DNA of 34,492 bases from a bacterium (GCA_021160245.1 JAGHCW010000036.1:1-34492), one strand, 5' to 3'. Positions 19,436 to 34,106 are shown, counted from the stretch's first letter. Translations and numbers: made by a program. Notes: a model not told the origin generated them from the letters alone.

Positions 19436-21208
19436 GTGAAATACTTCATGTGGCCGTGGCAGGAATTGTATGCATCTAGCCTTCAGATAACTGCGGAGCA
19501 GCTGTTTGGTTCGCTAGACAAGGCGTTAGTGCCCAATGTTTTTCTGGTAGGCATTCTGCACCGGGAGAAGTCTGGATCTTACCCGATATGTGTTGAACCG
19601 GAACACCGGGCTTGTGACCCGAGTATTTTATCCGACATTCTCGATGATGCTTCGCGACTAGGAAATGAAGACGAAAATGCGCAAGTATCTTTCACAGACC
19701 GGCGATCAACGGTACAGCAGAGGCAGAAATTGCATCTGACATCGGTTGCGAAAGCGATTAAGATCATCTTGGACCAACATGGAGAATCCAGAGTCTCTTT
19801 CTGCTCAACACCGGAACAAGTCGATCGCTATCTTGTATCGGTTGTTCTTCAAATGAGACAAGAAGCCTATGAATCTCATTACAATCTAATAACTAATCGA
19901 ATCACAATGCCCGGCGGAATAAGCTGCCCGATACCCACTTCACTCATAGACTCATCCATAAGTGAGTATCTTATGGCTGCCAGCAGAGCTCTGGCCGGGA
20001 CTAAATGCGATCCTAATATAGCTCCAGAACTGAATCCGCTGCCAGATATCGAATATATTCAGAAATTGGCCGGGAAACGTCTTATGTGGACTCCAGCCTA
20101 CGCCTCTAGACGAGTCCCGAACGTGATGGATTTGTATGATTTTTGTGAACGGATATCTTTGCAGACGTACGAATCGGCGCAGGGGGCGGGCAAAATAATC
20201 GTTTCAAAGCGAGACCATGCCGATGTCAGGACAATCGTCACATTTCATCCTGAAATCCCATTGCGGCAAATTCGTGCTGCGAGAAAGCTCCTTGAGCTTA
20301 CAAATAAGGAGAATAGCCTGCTATATGACTGCGAAGCGGGTCACATCTACGGTATCGGCCACATTCGTGAAGGATACGACGAGAAGCTTGAGAATCTGTT
20401 TGAGATTGAATTGATCAAGCATCATACATGGCGTCTCTTGCATGCCGGCCGCGGGATGATGGTTGTTAGCAATGGCGTTCCGGGACTTCCCAGCGATTTG
20501 CTGGACAATGACAAACTTGTAAGGGATTTACCGCGTATATTCCCCGGAATTAGTCAGATGGAGGCTCGAAGCCTGCGGGAGTTGGCAGTAGAGGCAACAA
20601 AGCAGACCCAAGGTACGATGCTTGTCATATCCGGCCAAGCCCAAGAAGAGGCAAACCGACTCATCTCAGAGTGTATTAAGACCGATCCATTCGTGCTCAC
20701 GAAGGAACTCATTCCTCTGGTTACATCTGTTGACGGATCTGTTCTTCTCGATCCCCGCGGGAAATGCCATGCCATTGGTGTGATTCTTGACGGAAGTGGA
20801 GAGGCCAAAGGCAAATGTCGGCTTGATCGGGGAGCTCGATTCAACTCAGCTGTTCGTTATATTAACGGAAAGAAGGAATGTCTCGCAATCGTCATCTCGG
20901 AGGACAGTTCCGTTGACCTCATACCGGATCTGAAGCCCCAGATCTCCAGAACGGAAATCCAAGACAACTTGGCAGATCTTGAACGAATCGCCCGACGCGA
21001 TCGTCTCACCGAGAAAGATACGCGTGAATTGTACGAGTTAATGGAGTGGTTGAATCATCACGAATTCTATCTAACAGGGGAGATATGCTCGAGGGTCGAT
21101 GCTCTGAAAGAGAACATCACCTCAAAGTGGCCTGACAACGAAATCAGAATCTTATTCAGGGATTTGAGATCCAATGACGAGATGGATGAGTCATACTTCC
21201 TGGATTAA
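19436..21208 (+). CDS. DisA_N/DAC-domain (predicted diadenylate cyclase-like) protein with N-terminal DACNV-like sensor region
   Basis: GTG start. C-terminal SVDGSVLLDPRGKCHAIGVILDGSGEAKGKCRLDRGARFNSAVRYINGKKECLAIVISEDSSVDLIPDLKP matches the DAC pattern (DGA-like, RHR-like and 'IVxSE' strand). Confidence 0.78.
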   Translation: MKYFMWPWQELYASSLQITAEQLFGSLDKALVPNVFLVGILHREKSGSYPICVEPEHRACDPSILSDILDDASRLGNEDENAQVSFTDRRSTVQQRQKLHLTSVAKAIKIILDQHGESRVSFCSTPEQVDRYLVSVVLQMRQEAYESHYNLITNRITMPGGISCPIPTSLIDSSISEYLMAASRALAGTKCDPNIAPELNPLPDIEYIQKLAGKRLMWTPAYASRRVPNVMDLYDFCERISLQTYESAQGAGKIIVSKRDHADVRTIVTFHPEIPLRQIRAARKLLELTNKENSLLYDCEAGHIYGIGHIREGYDEKLENLFEIELIKHHTWRLLHAGRGMMVVSNGVPGLPSDLLDNDKLVRDLPRIFPGISQMEARSLRELAVEATKQTQGTMLVISGQAQEEANRLISECIKTDPFVLTKELIPLVTSVDGSVLLDPRGKCHAIGVILDGSGEAKGKCRLDRGARFNSAVRYINGKKECLAIVISEDSSVDLIPDLKPQISRTEIQDNLADLERIARRDRLTEKDTRELYELMEWLNHHEFYLTGEICSRVDALKENITSKWPDNEIRILFRDLRSNDEMDESYFLD

Positions 21209-21483: not shown

Positions 21484-22431
21484 ATGATTGAGGTAAAGAA
21501 CGTCACAAAGCGTTTCGGAGCAACTGTTGCCCTTGATGGCCTCTCTTTTGAGGTCAAGAAGGGCGAGGTGCTGGGCTTTTTGGGTCCCAACGGCGCGGGT
21601 AAGACGACGATGATGCGAATCATCACTTGCTACATGCCCGCAACCGACGGCGCCGTCTCTGTCGCCGGCCACGACACATTGACAGATTCTTTTCAGGTTC
21701 GAGAGCGCATAGGTTATCTGCCCGAGAGCGCTCCACTCTATCTAGACATGAGCGTTGCCGATTACCTATCCTTTGTGGCCAAAGTCCGCGGCATTGAGAG
21801 CGGCTCAATTCGAGACCGGATCAAGAAAACATCGGAGATGTGCGGCCTTAGGAAGGTCATAGGAAAAGACATAGGCACGCTCTCAAAGGGATTTAGACAG
21901 CGTGTTGGGCTTGCTCAAGCACTCATCCACAACCCAGACATATTGATACTGGACGAGCCAACCACCGGCCTTGATCCGGCCCAAATAATCGAGATGAGGG
22001 AGCTCATCAAACGGATCGGCAAAGAAAAAACAGTCATTCTCTGCTCCCACATTCTGCCAGAGGTCGCCGCGACATGCGATCGCATCCTTATTATAGTCAA
22101 TGGGAAGCGAGTGGCCTCGGGCACTCCGGATGAGCTCACGAGTTCATCAGGCGAAAGCGTGAATATCACCGCCAGAATTCACGGCCCCAAGGAAGATGTC
22201 CGAGAAAAGATATCCGCAATGGATATGGTGATTGGCTGTCGCATCAAGGAGACTCGTGGAGATGGTCCCGCAACCTTCCTCATCAAGGCGAAGCCCGGCG
22301 ACGACGTTGGGCAAGACATATTCAAGATGGCGGTTGATAACAACTTCAGCCTGTCGGAATTGAGGGTGGAGAGGGTCAGTCTTGAGGACGTATTCCTCCA
22401 ATTGACAACTAAGGAGGTAGTATCTGAATGA
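21484..22431 (+). CDS. ABC transporter ATP-binding protein (GldA-like)
   Basis: GPNGAGKTT, LSKGFRQRVGLAQALIHNPDILILDEPTTGLDP. Confidence 0.93.
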   Translation: MIEVKNVTKRFGATVALDGLSFEVKKGEVLGFLGPNGAGKTTMMRIITCYMPATDGAVSVAGHDTLTDSFQVRERIGYLPESAPLYLDMSVADYLSFVAKVRGIESGSIRDRIKKTSEMCGLRKVIGKDIGTLSKGFRQRVGLAQALIHNPDILILDEPTTGLDPAQIIEMRELIKRIGKEKTVILCSHILPEVAATCDRILIIVNGKRVASGTPDELTSSSGESVNITARIHGPKEDVREKISAMDMVIGCRIKETRGDGPATFLIKAKPGDDVGQDIFKMAVDNNFSLSELRVERVSLEDVFLQLTTKEVVSE

Positions 22432-23144
22432 GAAACGTCTGCGCGATATTCCAAAAAGAACTTCGGTCCTACTTCAACTCTCCAGTAGCCTATATCGTGA
22501 TTATCCTCTTTGTGGGCTTCACGAGCTGGCTCTTCTTTCGCTCATTCTTTATCGCAAACCGCGCCGTGATGCGAGATTACTTCTCGATGCTGCCCTGGCT
22601 CTTCATGATCTTCGGTCCGCTGATCACAATGCGGCTCTGGGCTGAGGAAAAAAAGCTCAAAACGATGGAGCTTCTGATGACGATGCCGATCAAAGACTGG
22701 CAGGCGGTTCTCGGGAAATATATAGCCAGCCTATTCCTCTTGAGCTCGATGCTCATCCTATCACTGCCGATTGCCATCACGGTGGCGAGTCTCGGCAATA
22801 TGGATTGGGGTCCCGTCATTGGCGGCTATATCGGCGCGTTCTTGATGGGTGCCGCCTATCTCTCAATTGGGGTCTTCGCATCCTGCCTCACTGAGAACCA
22901 AATCGTGGCCGCAATCGTGAGTTTCTTCTTGAGTTTTGCGATGTGGATCATTGGAGAGAGCTTCGTAATTTTCGTCATGCCCGCGTCATTGGCCGCTCTT
23001 TTCGAGTACGTCGGCCTCGGCTCGCACTTCAAGAGCATTGGCCGTGGTGTGATAGATTCAAGAGACTTAATCTACTATTTTACGGTGATAGGCTTCTTCC
23101 TATTCCTGAACGCTAAAGGGATTGAGAGGCGCAAATGGGCATGA
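22428..23144 (+). CDS. ABC-2 permease (GldF-like)
   Basis: FQKELRSYFNSPVAYIVIILF...LPWLFMIFGPLITMRLWAEEKKLKTMELLMTMPI; overlaps the ATPase gene by 4 bp. Confidence 0.9.
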   Translation: MRNVCAIFQKELRSYFNSPVAYIVIILFVGFTSWLFFRSFFIANRAVMRDYFSMLPWLFMIFGPLITMRLWAEEKKLKTMELLMTMPIKDWQAVLGKYIASLFLLSSMLILSLPIAITVASLGNMDWGPVIGGYIGAFLMGAAYLSIGVFASCLTENQIVAAIVSFFLSFAMWIIGESFVIFVMPASLAALFEYVGLGSHFKSIGRGVIDSRDLIYYFTVIGFFLFLNAKGIERRKWA

Positions 23145-23175
23145 TGGTCTTCGAGATTTGGAGAGGGAGCAATTG

Positions 23176-24762
23176 ATGATCAAGCGGACCGCAAGTTATG
23201 GCATAAGCGCGATGGTCTCCGTGGTGATAGTCCTTGGTATTATTGTGGCAGTAAATGTCATATCCAGCCTCTATTTCGCCCGGGCAGACCTCACTGAGGA
23301 CAAGCGATTTACGGTCTCAAAGCCGACGCGAGACGTGCTCGCCGGCCTCGAGGACCTGGTCACGATAAACGTCTATTTCTCAAAGGAATTACCCTCGTAC
23401 GTAATGCCTCTGAAAACGCGTGTGAAGGACCTTCTAGACGAATACAAGGCCTATTCCGGCGGCAATCTCCAGGTTGACTTCATCGATCCGGACCTTGACC
23501 CAGAACAGAAGCAGAAGATGCAGTTCATGGGCATCCCACCCGTTCAGCTCAACGTTATCCAGAAGGATAAAGCCGAGCTCGTAACAGTCTATCTGGGTCT
23601 GGCAGTCCTTTATGAGAACAAAAAGGAAGTCATCCCGGTAATCAAGGCCACAGAAAACCTCGAATATCAGCTAACATCTTGCATCAGCAAGATTACGATG
23701 AAGGAGATCAAAACAGTTGGGCTTCTGCTGCTTTCTGACGGCATGGACATCGAGAAGGACTTCTCCATGTTGCGGGACGAGCTGAAGGGTCAATACGACG
23801 TCAAGGAGCTGGATCTGTCAGCAGGAGAGCGGGATTTCCGAGACGTCGATACGATGCTCGTTCTCGGGACAAAGGAGCTCTCGGATTACGAGAGTTTCTT
23901 AATTGACCAAGCCATTATGAAGGGGACCAACGTCATATTCCTTGCTGATATGATACAGCGAGAGCCGGGCAAACTACTAGCGACCCCAAAGCGAACGAAT
24001 CTCATTGATATAATTGCCAAGTATGGCCTGGACATTGGCGAGAATCTCGTGTTGGACAGGCATTCAGCAATGGCCTCGTTCAGTTCCGGTTTTATGTCCT
24101 TTTCGCTGCCCTATCCTTTCTGGATCAAAGTGGCTAAGGATGGCCTTTCACAAACCAACCCGGCAGTTAGCCAGCTCTCTTCGGCCATCTTCCCCTGGAC
24201 AAGCTCTGTCCAAACCGCTGCCAACGGGAATCCCAATATCAAGTTTGATGTTCTCGCCAAGTCATCAGAGAGATCATGGCTTCAAACCGGGCGTTATGAC
24301 CTCAACCCACAACAGAAGTTCGTGAAATCGTCAACATCCTCGCACGATCTAGCTATTGAGGCCACAGGAGTATTCAAGAGCGTATTTGCGGGGCAAGAGG
24401 CGCCAAAGCCTCCGACCGACCCGAAGCGCCGAACTCCCGAGAAAGCTCAGGAAGTTCTACAAGAGAGCCCGCCTGAAACAAAAATAGTCGTTATAGGTGG
24501 CTCATTCTTGGTCAACAATGAGTTCTTGAACCGCTACCGAGCCAACTTGCTCTTCGTGCAGAACCTAATTGACGTGATGACGCTTGGTCAGGGCCTGGTG
24601 GGAATCCGAGCAAGAGGTATGGATGAACGCCCGCTGGATGAAGTTTCAGAAGGAACCAAGTCCTGGGCCAAATACGGAAACATGATAGGCATTCCGATAC
24701 TCGTCATTCTGTTTGGACTCGTTCGTTACTATCTTAGAAGAAGAATGAGGGGGGCGCTATAG
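23176..24762 (+). CDS. GldG-like ABC-type uncharacterised transport system protein
   Basis: TM plus YFARADLTEDKRFTVSKPTRDVLAGLEDLVTINVYFSKELP, C-terminal TM plus RYYLRRR. ATG 23176 with SD gagggag preferred over track start. Confidence 0.88.
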   Translation: MIKRTASYGISAMVSVVIVLGIIVAVNVISSLYFARADLTEDKRFTVSKPTRDVLAGLEDLVTINVYFSKELPSYVMPLKTRVKDLLDEYKAYSGGNLQVDFIDPDLDPEQKQKMQFMGIPPVQLNVIQKDKAELVTVYLGLAVLYENKKEVIPVIKATENLEYQLTSCISKITMKEIKTVGLLLLSDGMDIEKDFSMLRDELKGQYDVKELDLSAGERDFRDVDTMLVLGTKELSDYESFLIDQAIMKGTNVIFLADMIQREPGKLLATPKRTNLIDIIAKYGLDIGENLVLDRHSAMASFSSGFMSFSLPYPFWIKVAKDGLSQTNPAVSQLSSAIFPWTSSVQTAANGNPNIKFDVLAKSSERSWLQTGRYDLNPQQKFVKSSTSSHDLAIEATGVFKSVFAGQEAPKPPTDPKRRTPEKAQEVLQESPPETKIVVIGGSFLVNNEFLNRYRANLLFVQNLIDVMTLGQGLVGIRARGMDERPLDEVSEGTKSWAKYGNMIGIPILVILFGLVRYYLRRRMRGAL

Positions 24763-25779
24763 ATGCGATCAAAACAAATATATTTCATGGCGGCAATATT
24801 CGTCGCCCTAGCTCTTGTGGCCTATTTTGCATACCAATCAAAAATGGCGCCGGAACAGCGTGCCGCGCAGACCGGAAAGAAGAAGATGTTCCCGAACTTC
24901 AAAGCCGACGAGGCGAAGAAACTGAAGATCAAATCGCTCGGGAGTGAGGCCACACTCCAAAGGGATGATACGGGAACCTGGATTGTCCCTGACAAGGGAA
25001 ACTATCCCGCGGACAAGAAGGCTCTGCAACAGATACTTGACGCGATTGAGTCAATGGATACCGGCACGGTCGTCTCGCGCAATCCAGAGAAGCAGCGACT
25101 CTACGAAGTGGACGAGATGATGGGCACCGAGGTGACCTTCCTTGATAAAAGCGACCAAGAAATCGCTCACTTCTTCGTCGGAAAAGCCGGGCAGGACTTT
25201 TTCAGCACAAATGTCCGCCTCGCCGGAACAAACGACGTGCGCCTCGTGAACAAGATGCTGAGCCACATGTTCAAGCGGCCAGGTGGCGACTGGCGCGACA
25301 AGCTCATATTCGACATAGATGAGGGCAAGATCGCCAAACTCTCCGTTACCGGGGAGGAGGGCACGGTGATATTCGGCAAGAGTGAGCAGGGAACATGGAG
25401 CACGATTGAGCCAGCCGGCAAAGAGGCCGACGCTGAAGAGATCAAGCGCTGCGCAGCCGCGTTTGCGAAGCTCCGGGCATCTGGCTTCGCGGACGAAAAG
25501 GACAAGGACAAGTTCGCGCTAGATAAGCCGGGACGTGTCATCACAGCCACAACGGATGATGGCGAGGCGCATACGCTGAACGTCTGTGGAGAAAAGAGCA
25601 AGGCGCAGTTCTTTGTCCAACGAGCCGGTAGCGATACGGTCTTTTTCATAAGCAAGTATCAGATTGACAGGATGAGCAAGTCCTGGGAACATATACTTGG
25701 AGTCGAGGTCAAAAAGAGCAAGAAGATGCACCCGCCGAAGGGTATGCAGCTCCCAAAACCGAAAAAGGAAAATAAGTAG
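24763..25779 (+). CDS. DUF4340 domain-containing protein
   Basis: N-terminal TM, repeated W.. / FAFDxP-like units; follows a GldG-like gene as commonly seen for this family. Confidence 0.75.
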   Translation: MRSKQIYFMAAIFVALALVAYFAYQSKMAPEQRAAQTGKKKMFPNFKADEAKKLKIKSLGSEATLQRDDTGTWIVPDKGNYPADKKALQQILDAIESMDTGTVVSRNPEKQRLYEVDEMMGTEVTFLDKSDQEIAHFFVGKAGQDFFSTNVRLAGTNDVRLVNKMLSHMFKRPGGDWRDKLIFDIDEGKIAKLSVTGEEGTVIFGKSEQGTWSTIEPAGKEADAEEIKRCAAAFAKLRASGFADEKDKDKFALDKPGRVITATTDDGEAHTLNVCGEKSKAQFFVQRAGSDTVFFISKYQIDRMSKSWEHILGVEVKKSKKMHPPKGMQLPKPKKENK

Positions 25780-25809: not shown

Positions 25810-27399
25810 CTAATCCAGCTTTGAGCCGAACTGAAATCCCTTTCTCTCGTAAAGCAGAAAGTGATACTTGTAGAAAACGTCGAGCAAGTCCTCACTACCG
25901 GCCAATCGGTAATCCTTGTAGAGCACCTCGTGGTCTAAGAGCATGTTCTCATAATTGTGCGCAGCCCAGTTCAAATCGCTCTTCATGTCAACCATCAATA
26001 AATAATCCGGCCTACGCCTGAAAACATACATCGGATCGAACTTCGCATGAATCTCCCCCTCAAGCCGCGCGATATAACGGTCCATTAAGCCCCGCATATC
26101 GATTATGTCCAGCCCGGAATAGTATGGAATAAGCCCCGCCTCGCCCAGCGCAACGGTCGTAGCAGGCCGAATCTGCTCGCGCATCAGTTTCGCGATCTGA
26201 TAGTATTCTTGGTTCAACATATCCCGACCCAAAAAACCTGACGGCTTCCCATTAATCCTGGCAAAGTCCAGGGAATGAAAAGCAAACACGCCGACCACAA
26301 TGGCAACAACGATTGCTGCAAACCATTTGCGCGCAGCGGCCCGATCTTGGGCGACCACAAGTCTTTGCCAAAGAAGTTGAGCTCCCTGCTGCGCCATCAG
26401 GGCAATCGCTGGAAATATCGGAATGAAGAGCCTGTAGGCGCCCATCCAATCGCCCCCGGAGTATATGACGAAAACCGACATGGCCACGAACTGCCAAAGG
26501 AGAAAAATGTATCTGAAGTCGCGATCCGATCGCCTCAGAAGCGGCAGGAAGCTGAGAATGATGAGTGGCCCGATTACCGTCCCGATGCCAAAACCCCAAT
26601 ATGTCAAACCCTCCCAGAGCCTATGTCCGCCATCGCCGGTCGCCTTCGCGTAAAATGTGTTCGGGAAAACGTCCCCATAATAGGCTAGCCGCCAACAGAT
26701 AAAGGCCACGTATGAAAGTCCAAAAGCGAGAATCCCAGGAAGCAAGGTTCGAAGAGCTATCCGCCGGCGCCAGAAATAGACAGACGTTACGATGAGTGAT
26801 GCGACGAAGAGGATGGGTATCTCCGGCCGAGTGAGCGATGCCAAGAGAAAGAAAAACGACGCATACGCGAAAAGCCGGCGCCTCGATAAGTCTGTGTTTG
26901 AGGGACCATCGGCAAGCATCCGGAGGCAGAAGAACTGTGCCATAAGGACAAAGAACGCGCACATTAGAGTCTCCAGACCTGAAACCGCCCAGCAGGCAAA
27001 CTGCATTGACGAGGCGATGAGTATCGGGGCAAGTAGCTTAATGACCAAAGATTCGCGGCGCCTCTTCGATAACAAGGCGCTTGCCCTGAAAATGAGCGGA
27101 ATGCAAAGCAGGCCAAAGAGAAGACCAATCGCCTTTGAGAAGACAAGAACACCATGGGGGAAATCAGAAAGGCCAGTCCAGATGACAAGTGACATCAAGA
27201 CCGTGAAGAGGAAGTTGGAATAGCCCTCAACGCGCTCACCCGGATTAAAGACCAGGCCGTTGCCGTTTGCCAACTGCTCAGAATAACGAAAGGTAATAAA
27301 GGCGTCATCCGTCGTAGCGTTGCTGATGTGAAACGAGGCGAATGCAAAGCACAGAATGAGACCCACAAGCAGCGCATGTTCTTGACGCCGAACGCCCAT
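25810..27399 (-). CDS. Polytopic membrane glycosyltransferase-like protein (AftB/GT39-type architecture)
   Basis: TTDDAFITFRYSEQLANGNGLVFNPGERVEGYSNFLFTVLM, many TM helices. Start chosen at MGVRRQEH (27399) to avoid overlap with map. Confidence 0.7.
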   Translation of the reverse strand: MGVRRQEHALLVGLILCFAFASFHISNATTDDAFITFRYSEQLANGNGLVFNPGERVEGYSNFLFTVLMSLVIWTGLSDFPHGVLVFSKAIGLLFGLLCIPLIFRASALLSKRRRESLVIKLLAPILIASSMQFACWAVSGLETLMCAFFVLMAQFFCLRMLADGPSNTDLSRRRLFAYASFFFLLASLTRPEIPILFVASLIVTSVYFWRRRIALRTLLPGILAFGLSYVAFICWRLAYYGDVFPNTFYAKATGDGGHRLWEGLTYWGFGIGTVIGPLIILSFLPLLRRSDRDFRYIFLLWQFVAMSVFVIYSGGDWMGAYRLFIPIFPAIALMAQQGAQLLWQRLVVAQDRAAARKWFAAIVVAIVVGVFAFHSLDFARINGKPSGFLGRDMLNQEYYQIAKLMREQIRPATTVALGEAGLIPYYSGLDIIDMRGLMDRYIARLEGEIHAKFDPMYVFRRRPDYLLMVDMKSDLNWAAHNYENMLLDHEVLYKDYRLAGSEDLLDVFYKYHFLLYERKGFQFGSKLD

Positions 27400-27451
27400 T
27401 AAACGGTCTTGGCAGCCATCGCGTTCCGTTGTGCGCCGGCGAGGCAAGATG

Positions 27452-28252
27452 TCACACCTGCGCCGGGCCCAGATAGAAATCTCGCTCGGATTCGTGAATT
27501 GAGAGTATCTCCGCCCCCGTTGATGTAACCGCAATCGCATGTTCGAATTGCGCAGAGAGCTTTCCGTCCGCGGTTACCGCCGTCCATTTGTCAGCCTTGA
27601 TCTTGAGCCGAAATGTGCCCTCATTTATCATAGGCTCGAGGCAGATGACCATCCCCTCCTGCAACATAATGCCGTGGCCCTTCCGGCCATAATGTGGAAT
27701 CTGAGGGTCCTCGTGGAGCGAACGACCAAGCCCGTGACCCACGAAATCTCTCACGGAGGAGTAGCCCTGCGACTCCACGTAGCGCTGGATTACGAAACCC
27801 AGATCACCGGTTCTCGCGCCGGGTTTAATCGCCTCAATTGCCAGCTTCAAAGACATCTTCGTGGCATTGGCCAGCCGCACGGCAGCCGGTTTGGGCTTAC
27901 CAACATAAACTGTGATAGCCGTATCCCCGTGGTATCCATTCTTCAAAACGCCTATGTCCAGCTTCAGCAGATCGCCCGACTTGAGCCTTCGAGCAGACGG
28001 TATCCCGTGAACGATCTCCTCGTTGATACTCGTAGTTATGCAGCCCGGAAAGGGTGGAGCCCCGGCCATTGAATAGCCCTTGAATGACGGGGTTGCGCCG
28101 TGAGCCAGGATTTGTGTCTCGGCTACCTCGTCAAGCTCCTTCGTCGTGATACCGGGCTCAGCATGTCCCGCCACATCCACAAGTACCTCTTTGGCAATCC
28201 GACACGATTCCCTAAGAAGGCCTATTTCGCGATTACTCTTAAGCTCTATCAA
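27452..28252 (-). CDS. map: Type I methionyl aminopeptidase
   Basis: GCITTSINEEIVHGIPS, DIGVLKNGYHGDTAIT, FVGHGLGRSLHEDPQIPHYG, EGMVICLEPMIN. Confidence 0.96.
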   Translation of the reverse strand: MIELKSNREIGLLRESCRIAKEVLVDVAGHAEPGITTKELDEVAETQILAHGATPSFKGYSMAGAPPFPGCITTSINEEIVHGIPSARRLKSGDLLKLDIGVLKNGYHGDTAITVYVGKPKPAAVRLANATKMSLKLAIEAIKPGARTGDLGFVIQRYVESQGYSSVRDFVGHGLGRSLHEDPQIPHYGRKGHGIMLQEGMVICLEPMINEGTFRLKIKADKWTAVTADGKLSAQFEHAIAVTSTGAEILSIHESERDFYLGPAQV

Positions 28253-28281: not shown

Positions 28282-30660
28282 CTACTTGTCAAGATCCACA
28301 AGCCGCCGATACTCCGGCTGGAATCCAACCTCCAACGCGCGCCTGGGCATCTTACCCGTTGAGTTCTTCTGCACATCGATTACCAGTCTGTCGATCTCAC
28401 CCCCATGGGCGCCGGTCTCGCCTGACTTTGAATACGGAACAAAATGGGTGCAGAGTACGATGCTCATATAGGGCTCTACTCTCGGTGAAATAGACAAGGC
28501 CGGCTCAGCCACTTCGCCGCCCGGAGCACGCACATGCGCCAACCAGGGGGTCTTCGTAACTACCACAGGCGCCTTAACTCGGGCGGCCCCTTGCTGCAGC
28601 TCCTTCATCGCATACGCCAATTGAGTCTCGTTCTCAATCGGAGAGGTCTTATCACGCGAGAGCATCCCAATACTGTCTACTAGAATGAGTGAGATGTTGA
28701 TGTTGTCTGACACCATCTGACATATCTCTTGAATGTCTGAGGCGCAATACTGAGTGTGAATGGGCTCCTCTACAACAACGAGCTTGTCCCTATATCGCGT
28801 GAACTCATCTACCGCGTTGAGGTACTTCTGATACATACTTCCGCCAGCCTCGAGCCGCTTCCCTACGATCTCCCCATGGGGTATCTCGAATACATTGGAA
28901 ATCAACATATTGAAAACCGCCATTCGCCTGTTCTCGAAGCTGAAATAGAGCACGGAGTCATCATAATTCCGCAAAATATGAGATATAAGGTGAATGCAGA
29001 ACGTGGTTTTGCCAGTGCCCGGCAGGCCTGAAATAAGCGTCATCTCACCAGCTCGGAGCGATACATACTCGTCCAAAGCTGCCAAGCCTGTTGTAAGCCC
29101 GGGGCGGGATGCCTCGTAACTATCAAGGACCTCCCTGGGGTTGTAAAACGAGCGCATAAGCTCATCTTCGGAGACCGAAACGATGGCAACTTCCTCAAGG
29201 TCATCCGCACTAACCGACCACGAGAAGCCCATCTCAATGTCGTCCCGCCGTTTCGTCTCCATCTGACTGACGACATCCTCAACCTGCTTCTCAATATCTC
29301 GACCCGGCTCGCCCTTCTTCATCTGCTCAATTACGATGCACCAAAAATGCGGATCCCATTTGATGCGGTCGCCTACAGATGTAACGAGTTCTTTGGAATC
29401 CTCCTCGACGAGCGAAAGGCTAGCTCTTGCGGCATCACGCCTCGCCTTGGCGGTCTCTGCCTCATTTGTTAGATCATATCTATCGAGCAGTTCCTTCCCA
29501 ACCCAACGCCCGATTGAGTATAGCCCCGACTTGCTCATAATGCTCTTGTCGAAGTAATCAAAGCCCCGGTCTTTTACCAAATCACATAGACTGTCCTCAC
29601 TTTCGGGTAAGGGCAGCACGTCAGCCTTGATCCCCAACTCAGATATGATCGTCCCGAACCGGGAGGTCTGTTCCCGGCCATATCGACTTATTGGCGAAAT
29701 AAAGGTGAAACTCTCCGCGCCAAGCTTCCTAAGCGACTCAATCTTCACCTTTGTGGGTGCAAATCCTCGTCCCAGTGAGACCATCTGCTTGAATATCTTG
29801 AAAGTCCGATTGCTCTCGTACTGGATGGAGATCGTGTCAATCTCAAGGGCTGACAACCAAACGCTGCGCTCCGACATTATCATCGACGCGGCTTGAGACA
29901 GCCCAAACATGGCATATTCCTGAAGGTCCTCTGTGAATCCAGGAAACGGACTCCGCGCTTCTTCATTGGACGGGTCCGTGCCCACGTAGCCAACTACGTT
30001 TCCCTGGCCATCCTCATAGGCATAGAGGAAAGGACAGTTGCTCTCAATCTCGCCTGACAGCACGCCAGCGGCATTCATCTCGTTCTCCGACACATCCTGA
30101 CGTGCAAGGTGCTGACGGATGTCCTTCTGTGTTGTGTAGAATCCCACAGGAAATGACATAAGAGCTCGCTCTGTGAGCCCCATCTCTTTGAAATAAGCCT
30201 TGGCGGCAACGATCGCAGGCGCAGTGCTGCGCTGAAAGGCCTTTGCAAAATACTGATCCAAGAGCCCGAAGATGAAGAGCTTACTCGTTGTCGCCTCCAT
30301 CATCTTCATGTCGTCAGACGAAAGCCCCAGGCTCGATGTGTCTATTCCAGTCTTCTCGGCAAGAAGAGCAATACCATCCTGGAGAGAACCCCCAGTCTTC
30401 TTGACCGCAGCTCGAAGCCAATTACTGCGATAGCCGCACATCCGACAGACTGCGCTCGAACCCGCTTTGGGAAGCATGAACGTCTGCTTAGCCCCCTGGT
30501 GCTTGGGGTTCGGACAGGAAGCGACAAACGCCGTCTCTCCCTCCTTAAACCGTTTCAGCGGCTGTATCCCCTCAGGCCCCCATATCGCCTCGTGTGAAAG
30601 GCCTTTGAACAACCGTTCCGTAACTCTGTAATAAATCTCCGCACCAACAGCCTTATCCAT
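28282..30660 (-). CDS. Phage/plasmid-like primase-helicase (CHC2-type zinc finger, Toprim-like region, DnaB/Twinkle-type RecA helicase)
   Basis: N-terminal ASCPNPKHQGAKQTFMLPKAGSSAVCRMCGYRS; helicase GLTTGLAALDEYVSLRAGEMTLISGLPGTGKTTFCIHLI, LILVDSIGML. Confidence 0.75.
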   Translation of the reverse strand: MDKAVGAEIYYRVTERLFKGLSHEAIWGPEGIQPLKRFKEGETAFVASCPNPKHQGAKQTFMLPKAGSSAVCRMCGYRSNWLRAAVKKTGGSLQDGIALLAEKTGIDTSSLGLSSDDMKMMEATTSKLFIFGLLDQYFAKAFQRSTAPAIVAAKAYFKEMGLTERALMSFPVGFYTTQKDIRQHLARQDVSENEMNAAGVLSGEIESNCPFLYAYEDGQGNVVGYVGTDPSNEEARSPFPGFTEDLQEYAMFGLSQAASMIMSERSVWLSALEIDTISIQYESNRTFKIFKQMVSLGRGFAPTKVKIESLRKLGAESFTFISPISRYGREQTSRFGTIISELGIKADVLPLPESEDSLCDLVKDRGFDYFDKSIMSKSGLYSIGRWVGKELLDRYDLTNEAETAKARRDAARASLSLVEEDSKELVTSVGDRIKWDPHFWCIVIEQMKKGEPGRDIEKQVEDVVSQMETKRRDDIEMGFSWSVSADDLEEVAIVSVSEDELMRSFYNPREVLDSYEASRPGLTTGLAALDEYVSLRAGEMTLISGLPGTGKTTFCIHLISHILRNYDDSVLYFSFENRRMAVFNMLISNVFEIPHGEIVGKRLEAGGSMYQKYLNAVDEFTRYRDKLVVVEEPIHTQYCASDIQEICQMVSDNINISLILVDSIGMLSRDKTSPIENETQLAYAMKELQQGAARVKAPVVVTKTPWLAHVRAPGGEVAEPALSISPRVEPYMSIVLCTHFVPYSKSGETGAHGGEIDRLVIDVQKNSTGKMPRRALEVGFQPEYRRLVDLDK

Positions 30661-30874
30661 GTCGGCTCTCCCTCATGGAATCAAATTATTCAACTACGTG
30701 ACCTTTCTAACCGTCAGCAAACTGCAAACTAAGATATTTTGAGCAAGCCCTCAAGTCAAGCGAATCATCCAAATCATCTCGCCTCGTCATGCCGAAAGCA
30801 ACTGCCCTATATGTGCCCCACTTGTGACCCTTTTCGCTTAATGAATACAAGCCGCGGTCATAATCCCAAAATCT

Positions 30875-30888
30875 ACCCCGCGCGGGGT
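30875..30888. promoter_or_regulatory. Perfect 14-bp palindrome in a divergent intergenic region (possible operator)
   Basis: ACCCCGCGCGGGGT between the primase-helicase (-) and the terminase operon (+). Confidence 0.4.
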
Positions 30889-31079
30889 GATGCGCCAAAA
30901 CCGCGTACTTAAGCTACGCATGAGGCGTGAGAGTGATGCCCCGGCCGGAAACGCGGCGAGCAAAAGGGAAAAAACGAGAATCTGGCCAGAAGAAACAATG
31001 ATCTCACGTCAATTTCACGGACTTCCGGAATTAGATTCGCAGGCGAATTAAAGACTCAAGGCAACAGGTGGAACCATCA

Positions 31080-31556
31080 ATGAAATGTTCCGAGCTCACG
31101 ACAGATGCCGACTCAAGCAGCCGAACTAAGCTCCTTGAAAAGTGGCAAAAACTCCTGGATTTCATGGAAAAGCGATTCAACGCCGCGGCGAGGCGGGAGG
31201 AAAAGGACGGAAAGTTTGGGGCGGATACTGAAAAGACCGTCGCCACGTACATAAAGACACTTCAGGCGTTCGCCAAAGAAGTCAAGCAACTGGAAGCAAA
31301 CGGCGGCGTCGAGACCAGCGCTGCGGCACAAGTCGCTGAAGAACTCTGGACACTCAAACTGACGAATCGCGAACGGGCGACAATCGCCTCAATCCTAAAA
31401 GACCTGGACATCGTGAGTTACGAGCAACCCGGCACAAGAGGAAAAAGCAAGATTGACAGACCGAAGAGACCTGAGAATGAACACGAGCAACAAGATCAAA
31501 GAGCAATTGAATTCTCTGAGTCCGAAGGCAAAGGCGAAGATGATAACGGCTCTTAG
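31080..31556 (+). CDS. Hypothetical protein, possible small terminase subunit by position
   Basis: Helical, charged, 158 aa from ATG 31080; overlaps the 5' end of the TerL gene. Functional call is positional only. Confidence 0.5.
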   Translation: MKCSELTTDADSSSRTKLLEKWQKLLDFMEKRFNAAARREEKDGKFGADTEKTVATYIKTLQAFAKEVKQLEANGGVETSAAAQVAEELWTLKLTNRERATIASILKDLDIVSYEQPGTRGKSKIDRPKRPENEHEQQDQRAIEFSESEGKGEDDNGS

Positions 31557-33381
31557 CAGCCTTCTCAAGAACTCGCCAAGAGAGTTTCGCAAAATACAAA
31601 GAAATGTGTTCTGGGACCCCGTATATGACCGGCCGCCCTGTGACATGGAGGAATTTCTACTATCAGATAAGTACCTAGGTCTCACCGATAGAGCCTCGAG
31701 GCCCTATATTCATCAGAGACTTCTGAAACTACTCATCTTATCGGATAGCGATTCGATACGGGAGATATACCTCTGCCTCGGCAAGGACTCCGGCAAGTCC
31801 TTCTTCGCCTCGTGCATGGCGTGTCGAACAGTCTATCTGCTCTCATGTCTGCAACCATCTCCTCAAGAATCGCTCCCCACAATCGCTCCAGGATCAGGCA
31901 TCCAGATAATCAACCTCGCAACGGACAGCAAACAGGCGAATCGCTCGGTCTTCAAAGAACTCAAGACAAAAATTGTCGGCAGACCATCCTCTCAAGCAGC
32001 GAGATGGTTCAAGCTCTTTGGCTTTGAGGAAAGAGCGGACCGATTCATACTCCCAAACAACATCGAGATTATATGTGGTCATTCCCGAGCCGAGGCTTGG
32101 CTCGGAGCAAATACGATTCTCGGTATCATCGACGAGGCGTCCTATTTCCGGGAGACGCCCAATAGGAGCCTTGATGACCGAGGATACCCCACCAGCCTCG
32201 CTGAGATGAACTACAACGCGTTCTACGGCAGCTGCAGGACGAGATTCCCCGACCATTACAAGATCATCATCATCTCATCCCCAAAACATCAGGGTGACTT
32301 CCTCTTCAGGAAAATCCTGCAAACCAGAAGAAACGGAAGGAAGATTGATGTCGATTCGGTAGGCATCCGCACAGCCTATCCCACCGCATTGCCCATCGAC
32401 CGGAAACGACTAGCGTCCTCCGGGCTGAAGAAGTATGACATCGGGATTCTCGCCAGCATTGATGGTGAGAGACTCGCCATCCAGGCCCCCGCGTGGGAGC
32501 TCAAAGACGACGAGACAATTCTCGATTACGTCAATGATTTTAAGAACAACCCGGTCATGACGGCGCGTGACTTCGGCGCTCAGCCATATCTAGCAGAGTC
32601 GCCCTACTTCGACTTTGATCGGCTTAAGAACTGCTTCGATGACAGACGGAAACCGCCTCTTCAGTTCTTAAGCCAACCGGGGGACGAGCAATCAGACATG
32701 CCAGAATCCCCCATGATGCAGAAGAGAAGGCTATCTGCCGAGTTCACCGGGCATCCTGATAGACACTATTTCGCGCATATTGACTTCGCAACAGGAGGCC
32801 GGCTTGGAAAAGGGGACGCGTGTGGCTTCGCTCTTGGTCATGCGGAAGAAGCCATCAATGTCTGCAAAAAGCCCTTCTACAGAGTCGTGTTCGACCTTGT
32901 TACGAGATTTCAATTCGCAAATGGCAGGCCAGTTGACGCTGAGGAGCTTTGCGACTTCGTCCACTATCTCCAATCCGGCAAGGAACAGTTTCGCCCTCAG
33001 AGACGCCTTCAGCCCTGGGAAACGCATGACGGCGCCTACTTCACAAATCTGAGCGTGTCGATTGACGGATTCAACCAAGAGCTCCTATCACAAATGCTGA
33101 AGAAGCGAGGCGTTAGTGTCGAATACTTCTCGCCCGACAAAAGCCGCGAGTGCTGGCAAATCGCCGAGTTCGCATTCTACAAACACTGGGTCTCGATCTT
33201 CCCCCATCCGATCCTGAAAGCCGAGATTCTATCATTGCAGACGACCGACAGCGGGATACCCGACCATCCCCCTCGAGGCTCAAAGGACATTCTCGACGCG
33301 GTCGTTTCCGTCATCTACCGAACGCTAACCACAAAGCAATCAGGCACGTGCTCCCACTCGTATCTTGGAATCAAGGGATAG
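31477..33381 (+). CDS. Phage terminase large subunit-like protein (ATPase plus nuclease)
   Basis: Walker A-like CLGKDSGKS, Walker B NTILGIIDEASYF, MTARDFGAQP, nuclease-like FAHIDFATGGRLGKGDACGFALG ... VSIDGFN ... SKDILDAVVSVIY. Confidence 0.72.
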   Translation: MNTSNKIKEQLNSLSPKAKAKMITALSSLLKNSPREFRKIQRNVFWDPVYDRPPCDMEEFLLSDKYLGLTDRASRPYIHQRLLKLLILSDSDSIREIYLCLGKDSGKSFFASCMACRTVYLLSCLQPSPQESLPTIAPGSGIQIINLATDSKQANRSVFKELKTKIVGRPSSQAARWFKLFGFEERADRFILPNNIEIICGHSRAEAWLGANTILGIIDEASYFRETPNRSLDDRGYPTSLAEMNYNAFYGSCRTRFPDHYKIIIISSPKHQGDFLFRKILQTRRNGRKIDVDSVGIRTAYPTALPIDRKRLASSGLKKYDIGILASIDGERLAIQAPAWELKDDETILDYVNDFKNNPVMTARDFGAQPYLAESPYFDFDRLKNCFDDRRKPPLQFLSQPGDEQSDMPESPMMQKRRLSAEFTGHPDRHYFAHIDFATGGRLGKGDACGFALGHAEEAINVCKKPFYRVVFDLVTRFQFANGRPVDAEELCDFVHYLQSGKEQFRPQRRLQPWETHDGAYFTNLSVSIDGFNQELLSQMLKKRGVSVEYFSPDKSRECWQIAEFAFYKHWVSIFPHPILKAEILSLQTTDSGIPDHPPRGSKDILDAVVSVIYRTLTTKQSGTCSHSYLGIKG

Positions 33382-33439
33382 AGAAAACCGTTTCCATAAA
33401 ACCAGGTGAGTTCAGTCAAAATATGAGATGGAGAAATAG

Positions 33440-33613
33440 ATGAACAGAAAACTCAAAAGGAAACTACGGTTGCTCCAACTATGCCGAAAATACGGATACA
33501 AAGAAAACGAGACGCTCTTGCGGCGAAAACTGAGAAAGCAGACCAGTCCAGACAAAAGCGATGAGACACCGATTCTATTCAATCTCTCTCGCGAGGAGGA
33601 AATCAAAGAATGA
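33440..33613 (+). CDS. Small basic ORF (57 aa) translationally coupled to the sigma-like gene
   Basis: ATG 33440 to TGA 33611-33613: MNRKLKRKLRLLQLCRKYGYKENETLLRRKLRKQTSPDKSDETPILFNLSREEEIKE; ATGA overlap with the next gene. Below the ORF-track length cutoff. Confidence 0.55.
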   Translation: MNRKLKRKLRLLQLCRKYGYKENETLLRRKLRKQTSPDKSDETPILFNLSREEEIKE

Positions 33614-34026
33614 CATTGTGCAGCGACTGCCCCAACCGGGATACATGCACCGAGCTCTGTGATGAAGCACGAAAGCTCACCTACGGCGGCGGCGAGAAGC
33701 GAAAACGAAGAACATATCCTGTTGATTTCGCCTCGTTTGAGGCCAAGTCAACTACTGAACTCAATAGATTTCAGATACAGTCGCTTAATGCAATAAGTTA
33801 TCGCCCAACAGAGAGGCAGGAGCTTCGTATGCTGCTTGAGCAAATCCTGTCAACGCTCTCTGATGGCCAGCGTTTCGTCTTCGTAAAGAAGATGGAGGGG
33901 TACACGAATAGAGAGATCGCTAAATTGGCAGGTCTGACTGAGAAGGCCATAGAACAGCGCCACACACGCGCTCGCAAGCGACTGAAGCAGCTGGCGGCGC
34001 AATTCAACGGCGATCTTCGGTGGTAA
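33610..34026 (+). CDS. Sigma-70 region 4-like HTH protein with N-terminal Cys cluster
   Basis: CSDCPNRDTCTELC zinc-ribbon-like motif; LLEQILSTLSDGQRFVFVKKMEGYTNREIAKLAGLTEKAIEQRHTRARKRLKQ is sigma region 4. SD gaggagg. Confidence 0.78.
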   Translation: MTLCSDCPNRDTCTELCDEARKLTYGGGEKRKRRTYPVDFASFEAKSTTELNRFQIQSLNAISYRPTERQELRMLLEQILSTLSDGQRFVFVKKMEGYTNREIAKLAGLTEKAIEQRHTRARKRLKQLAAQFNGDLRW

Positions 34027-34036
34027 AATAGCCAGC

Positions 34037-34106
34037 CATCCAAGCGAGTTCCTGATTGGGCGTCGCAGAAGAGCATTCTCTTCGACGCCCAGGACCGCTC
34101 TGGATG
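34037..34106. other. Extended 70-nt imperfect hairpin (structured RNA, terminator or DNA site)
   Basis: Manual pairing gives about 27 bp in five helices: 37-42/101-106, 43-46/96-99, 50-53/91-94, 58-65/83-90, 69-73/78-82, loop CATT. No clear U-tract. Confidence 0.6.

Follow-up and report, generated by a model that had tools for sequence, protein, structure and literature searches.

The window analysed here is a whole contig of 34,492 bases (GCA_021160245.1, JAGHCW010000036.1) from a draft genome of 244 contigs (G000), and the system in question is a block of four plus-strand genes that includes one for a large terminase subunit (TerL). The block was compared among four draft genomes (83-95% complete) of one family of Candidatus Coatesbacteria, two of the relatives of G000 being metagenome-assembled genomes deposited under that name. 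Gene absences in the four genomes were judged by hidden Markov model (HMM) searches, and a stretch-by-stretch reading of G000 covered 1.17 Mb, about a third of the genome. A sequence-only reading had described five open reading frames (ORFs) between 28282 and 34106 as one phage-like module, and all five are indeed present where it placed them. The unit, however, is the four-gene block at 31080-34026 together with a non-coding element upstream of it at 30898-31022, and the primase-helicase gene of that reading is excluded from it. The features of the unit are as follows.

30898-31022, plus strand: non-coding element 5′ of the TerL block, with AAACCGCGTAC at 30898-30908, AAAACGAGAATC at 30971-30982 and TTTCACGGAC at 31013-31022
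31080-31556, plus strand: acidic, all-helical protein of 158 amino acids (ATG at 31080; ORF from 31068), candidate small terminase subunit (TerS)
31477-33381, plus strand: TerL, 634 amino acids (ATG at 31477; ORF from a TTG at 31453), with an ATPase at the N-terminus and an RNase H-type nuclease at the C-terminus
33440-33613, plus strand: basic protein of 57 amino acids, pI 10.1, conserved in the four genomes
33610-34026, plus strand: sigma-region-4 protein, 138 amino acids (Sigma70_r4_2, E=4.8e-11)

The identity of TerL was confirmed by a match to a PHROG terminase family (E=5.5e-16). Its closest named relatives come from Stanwilliamsviridae (Streptomyces phage Jay2Jay) and from large phages related to these, and the identity to TerLs of Streptomyces, Vibrio and Gordonia phages is about 25% across 90-97% of the length. 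The columns G110/G114/K115, D227/E228, D444, D538 and D612/D615 are invariant between this protein and four phage TerLs, so that the Walker A/B and nuclease acidic residues described from the sequence are intact, and the catalytic residues are retained among 16 viral relatives as well. The AlphaFold model (mean predicted local distance difference test, pLDDT, 69; predicted template modelling score, pTM, 0.49) carries confidence at the domain level only. It matches the solved ATPase and nuclease folds of HK97, T4 gp17, Sf6, the P74-26 ATPase and the G20c nuclease with probability 1.00, the matches being by domain with both halves covered, since the global template modelling scores are low (0.2-0.3 over the query). 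A search of PDB sequences with TerL gave no match. On the alignment and the model, the protein is a genuine large terminase with ATPase and nuclease residues in one chain. It may be noted that three scans of viral contigs returned only TerLs of about 25-30% identity, with the partner proteins beside none of them, and a close phage relative carrying the same cassette was not found. The TerLs of Jay2Jay, PatrickStar, Thermus phage TMA and Vibrio phage MS01 sit in full phage genomes, unlike the one described here, and counterparts of the helical, basic and sigma-region-4 proteins are absent from all the phage loci scanned. Plasmids gave two partial and weak matches to TerL, and only two distant TerLs turned up in 389 other bacterial genomes.

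TerL is present as a single copy in all four genomes, free of stop codons and with 68-70% identity between G000 and the rest. Conservation is lower for the host DnaG (53-55% in the same comparison), and the pattern of TerL identity across the genomes parallels those of map, the methionyl aminopeptidase gene, and DnaG. The ratio of nonsynonymous to synonymous substitution rates (dN/dS, omega) for the two closest genomes is 0.13 for TerL, 0.11 for the primase-helicase and 0.06 for map. In the pairs with measurable dS the TerL values lie between 0.09 and 0.13, the deeper pairs being saturated. The dN/dS check therefore shows purifying selection (omega about 0.1), with neither frameshifts nor relaxed selection. 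In the tree the four TerLs group together with full support, their stem being 1.84 substitutions per column long, and the GC content at third codon positions is 0.62 for TerL and for map alike. Co-diversification with the host, which is used as a criterion for gene transfer agents (GTAs) in PMC9662315, is seen for TerL in these four genomes. A decayed prophage had been offered as the dull alternative, and a decaying remnant or an ordinary prophage fragment would agree with the descent of TerL from tailed-phage TerLs. Yet the gene occurs once per genome with host-like divergence and omega of about 0.1, the non-coding element is conserved, and no integrase or other phage gene lies near the block. 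Integrase, lysis and structural genes were found neither among the scanned window proteins nor beside the TerL block in the relatives, in line with the earlier remark on missing structural genes, none having been detected among the ten other window proteins scanned. Because TerL is intact and under selection in four of four genomes and the element is conserved, we see a vertically inherited cassette, and consider a prophage remnant scarcely credible. The suggestion of a domesticated packaging system holds for the four-gene block, given its single copy, gene order, selection, retained residues and host-like divergence and third-position GC. The divergence suggests that this domesticated cassette has been inherited vertically.

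The order of the block (helical protein, TerL, basic ORF, sigma-region-4 gene) is the same in the four genomes, except that the contig of one relative (G001) stops before the sigma-region-4 gene. The helical ORF overlaps terL by about 80-140 bases in every genome. Four helices are predicted for its product, no family in the library scans matched it, and its AlphaFold model is poor (pLDDT 56) and too weak for use. By position, size, helicity and the terL overlap it is a candidate small terminase subunit; in GTAs, TerS is a small helical protein encoded immediately upstream of TerL (PMC6854486). The 57-residue basic ORF, being conserved in all four genomes, is real as had been proposed, and its stop codon overlaps the start of the sigma-region-4 gene by four bases (ATGA) in the window. 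The sigma-region-4 protein, which opens with MTLCSDCPNRDTCTELC (33610-33660), has the N-terminal motif CxxCx5Cx3C, with C4, C7, C13 and C17 invariant in three genomes. These four cysteines may form a metal or Fe-S cluster site. A weak PHROG match to WhiB (E=0.03) was also obtained, and the CxxCx5C part is similar to that of WhiB-like proteins. The protein is a likely regulator.

The non-coding element lies some 60-180 bases 5′ of the block and is conserved, although between G000 and the other genomes most genes are saturated at their synonymous sites. AAACCGCGTAC and AAAACGAGAATC show no difference among the four genomes, and exactly 30 bases lie between AAAACGAGAATC and a downstream TTT(C/G)ACGGA, which in the window is part of TTTCACGGAC. 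The spacing between the first two motifs is 73, 116, 63 and 73 bases in the four genomes, and therefore the region has no shared reading frame. With up to 3 mismatches allowed, the composite element occurs at one site per genome, always 5′ of the TerL block, and the reversed control gave none. No second site was found in a further 1.1 Mb of G000. A regulon sharing the element is ruled out by this single site per genome. An RNA was rejected too, the fold being weak and not conserved, with no Rfam match. In a test for 21-base iterons the self-match peaked at lag 21 (0.38) but was nearly equal at lags 22-23. The element could serve as an operator/promoter or as a packaging site.

The five genes of the proposed module are two unrelated blocks which abut in G000 alone. 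In three of the four genomes the primase-helicase and TerL lie on different contigs, which runs counter to the idea of one divergent cassette. The primase-helicase was accordingly ruled out as a member of the TerL unit. Insertion between map and alr, the alanine racemase gene, also finds no support. Since the primase-helicase is followed by map in all four genomes and has its own promoter, map is an operon partner and no edge of an insertion. When the gene set was looked for between map and alr in the relatives, the TerL block was found among other neighbours, namely, in G002 and G003, glycosyltransferase genes and genes of the PMT type, as against alr and the map operon in G000. That the two genes nevertheless form one system that was split apart in the other genomes might be argued from the retention of both in all four. 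But their linkage is seen in one genome of four, the primase-helicase is constantly with map under its sigma70-type promoter, and the element of the TerL block is not found upstream of it in the other three, all of which makes a five-gene cassette very improbable. The same removal bears on a capsid-less satellite that borrows the capsid of a helper phage, which had been suggested from a TerL that stands without structural genes. Once the primase-helicase is taken away, no integrase or replication gene is left and no sign of mobility is seen. The block is vertically inherited, and the viral matches are as distant, and the plasmid matches as weak and partial, as given above. We regard such a satellite as highly improbable.

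How the block would act as the motor that fills the particles of a dispersed GTA can be outlined. A phage packaging module would have been captured once, before the four genomes diverged, and then domesticated. The sigma-region-4 regulator would act at the upstream element and switch the block on, the helical protein, as TerS, would bring TerL to chromosomal DNA, and TerL would cut the DNA and pump it with ATP. The head and tail genes would lie elsewhere in the genome, too divergent to be recognised. The closest precedent is Brachyspira, where a single conserved terL lies outside the BhGTA structural cluster; of the genes in that cluster, the endolysin alone can be recognised. The block examined here agrees closely with this picture. 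That terL has been proposed to serve BhGTA/VSH-1 (Brachygtaviriformidae), and the Brachyspira TerLs sit on a long branch away from phage TerLs (PMC9662315). Both terL genes are single-copy and conserved, lie outside recognisable phage clusters, sit on a long branch and are vertically inherited. Brachyspira differs in that its particles are proven and its structural cluster, of 16.3 kb, is known. Conversely, the Coatesbacteria block differs from the Brachyspira terL by its additional genes, for a candidate TerS, a small basic protein and a sigma-region-4 protein. The RcGTA-like GTAs of Alphaproteobacteria share the small helical TerS 5′ of TerL (PMC6854486), the host-linked evolution and the scattered loci, but in RcGTA TerL stands beside portal and capsid genes.

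Several points weigh against the dispersed GTA. It is deduced from the genes of only four draft genomes. That the helical protein acts as TerS is argued from position and helicity, its model being poor. Also, HMM searches of the four genomes matched neither the portal (PF04860 and phrog_12) nor the HK97-type capsid (PF05065 and phrog_29), and the orphan portal or capsid genes whose presence elsewhere had been thought worth checking were thus not found. As a control, the PF04860, PF05065 and phrog_12 models all detect their targets in Caulobacter, because of which an RcGTA-type agent should have been detected. The families of TerL's closest phage relatives were included in these searches. The RcGTA-type layout is likewise not seen, as the neighbours of TerL are host genes instead of an HK97-type portal and capsid. 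A phmmer search with the structural proteins of four phages against the 1.17 Mb of G000 gave no portal or capsid match. The top match, to the tape measure protein of Jay2Jay (E 3.4e-8), was partial; it was made by a protein at L164:15038-15967 (G000:C34) and may reflect a shared enzymatic or coiled-coil domain. It may be noted that divergent structural genes of the BhGTA kind would escape the portal and capsid HMMs. The earlier suggestion of a split GTA survives in part: it has a precedent in Brachyspira, but no particle gene was found in four genomes. On balance we give a GTA-filling role of the TerL block somewhat less than an even chance. That it would represent a hitherto unknown lineage of GTAs, which in Candidatus Coatesbacteria would stand independently of those already known and have particle genes unrecognisable by sequence, is put forward only tentatively.

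The same missing portal and HK97-type capsid would favour a domesticated TerL that packages into no shell, in which the ATPase-nuclease and its helical partner perform some other DNA job under the sigma-region-4 regulator, such as repair, defence, or the cleavage or transport of chromosomal or invading DNA. The single conserved upstream element would then be a possible dedicated cleavage or binding site, and purifying selection in the absence of phage partners fits such a role. But a grouping of TerS, TerL and regulator is what packaging needs, and PADLOC gave no defence-system match for TerL. TerL motors normally need a portal. We know of no characterised TerL with a non-packaging role, and the literature on orphan or domesticated terminases held nothing relevant outside that on GTAs. 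A non-packaging role is doubtful, though as the main rival of the dispersed GTA it has to be taken seriously. Should no shell exist, a TerL maintained by selection for a different task would be an even greater surprise. A conserved orphan terL is one of the few sequence signs of GTAs with unrecognisable shells. If the dispersed GTA is real, it would add to Brachyspira a second such case, from a lineage not in culture, and would suggest that surveys based on capsids miss such agents. The TerL block offers a concrete four-gene handle for testing it.

The remaining features that flank the block are given below.

25810-27540, minus strand: membrane protein, third gene of the primase-helicase/map operon; the listed ATG overlaps map and the true start lies further downstream
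27452-28252, minus strand: map, type I methionyl aminopeptidase (TIGR00500, E=1.4e-89)
28282-30660, minus strand: primase-helicase, 792 amino acids, in which a DnaG-like zinc finger and a TOPRIM region are joined in one chain to a DnaB/KaiC-like ATPase
30731-30759, minus strand: sigma70-type promoter of the operon, by resemblance to the consensus only
from 34238: alr, last gene of the window, incomplete at the contig end

The position of alr downstream of the sigma-region-4 gene agrees with the earlier description, the gene being cut by the end of the contig. The operon of primase-helicase, map and membrane-protein gene has the same order in all four genomes, with a gap of 29 bases between the first two genes in the window. 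Its promoter consists of TTGACT (30759-30754), a 17-base spacer and TATCTT (30736-30731), and a similar one (TTGACT, about 17 bases, TATCxT) is found 5′ of the primase-helicase in each genome. The primase-helicase orthologues are 60-62% identical, and in the other three genomes they lie on a contig free of TerL. An hhalign comparison of residues 1-400 with the DnaG of the same genome gave a probability of 98% (E 1e-13), and the zinc-finger residues C49, H54, C72 and C75 are retained. In the four orthologues, however, the TOPRIM Glu motif EGYMD is replaced by ALEID/ASEVD, and FDxDxAG by SPISRYG/TPTTREG. The C-terminal part resembles ATPases of the DnaB and KaiC type and its Walker A is intact, while the Arg of the DnaB K-x-R-x-G motif is apparently replaced, as judged by eye from the alignment. 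Each genome has in addition a normal dnaG, well over the curated cut-off. The primase-helicase is an ordinary gene of the chromosome, and by sequence it has lost its primase active site. An active phage primase is ruled out by the loss of the TOPRIM acidic residues in all four orthologues, and the notion of a phage replication gene fails on the replacement of both motifs and the separate dnaG.

Human TWINKLE is described as a primase-helicase design that has lost its primase catalytic residues (PMC9860392), and to that extent the two are alike in architecture and in the loss. The present gene differs in being bacterial and chromosomal, in standing beside a normal DnaG and in keeping its zinc-finger residues. 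The comparison is a likeness of design drawn from sequence, and no family membership is claimed. A conserved bacterial protein of TWINKLE-like design, in which DnaG-like and DnaB-like parts are fused, the primase site is dead and the gene belongs to a map operon, is of interest in itself. Two more TOPRIM primase-like genes with intact-looking motifs were seen in G002 (L034 and L036, on G002:C167 and G002:C17), probably from mobile elements. A gldA/gldF-like operon with an auxiliary protein and a DUF4340 protein occupies 21484-25779, and it is also found near the primase-helicase/map operon in G001 (L021). Elsewhere in the window, a plus-strand gene at 19436-21208, with a GC content of 0.48 that is below most of the window, encodes a protein of 590 amino acids that matches NCBIfam NF053872 (DS2_3_antiphage) nearly end to end, with 530 bits against a cut-off of 630, and from this match its product is a probable anti-phage protein.

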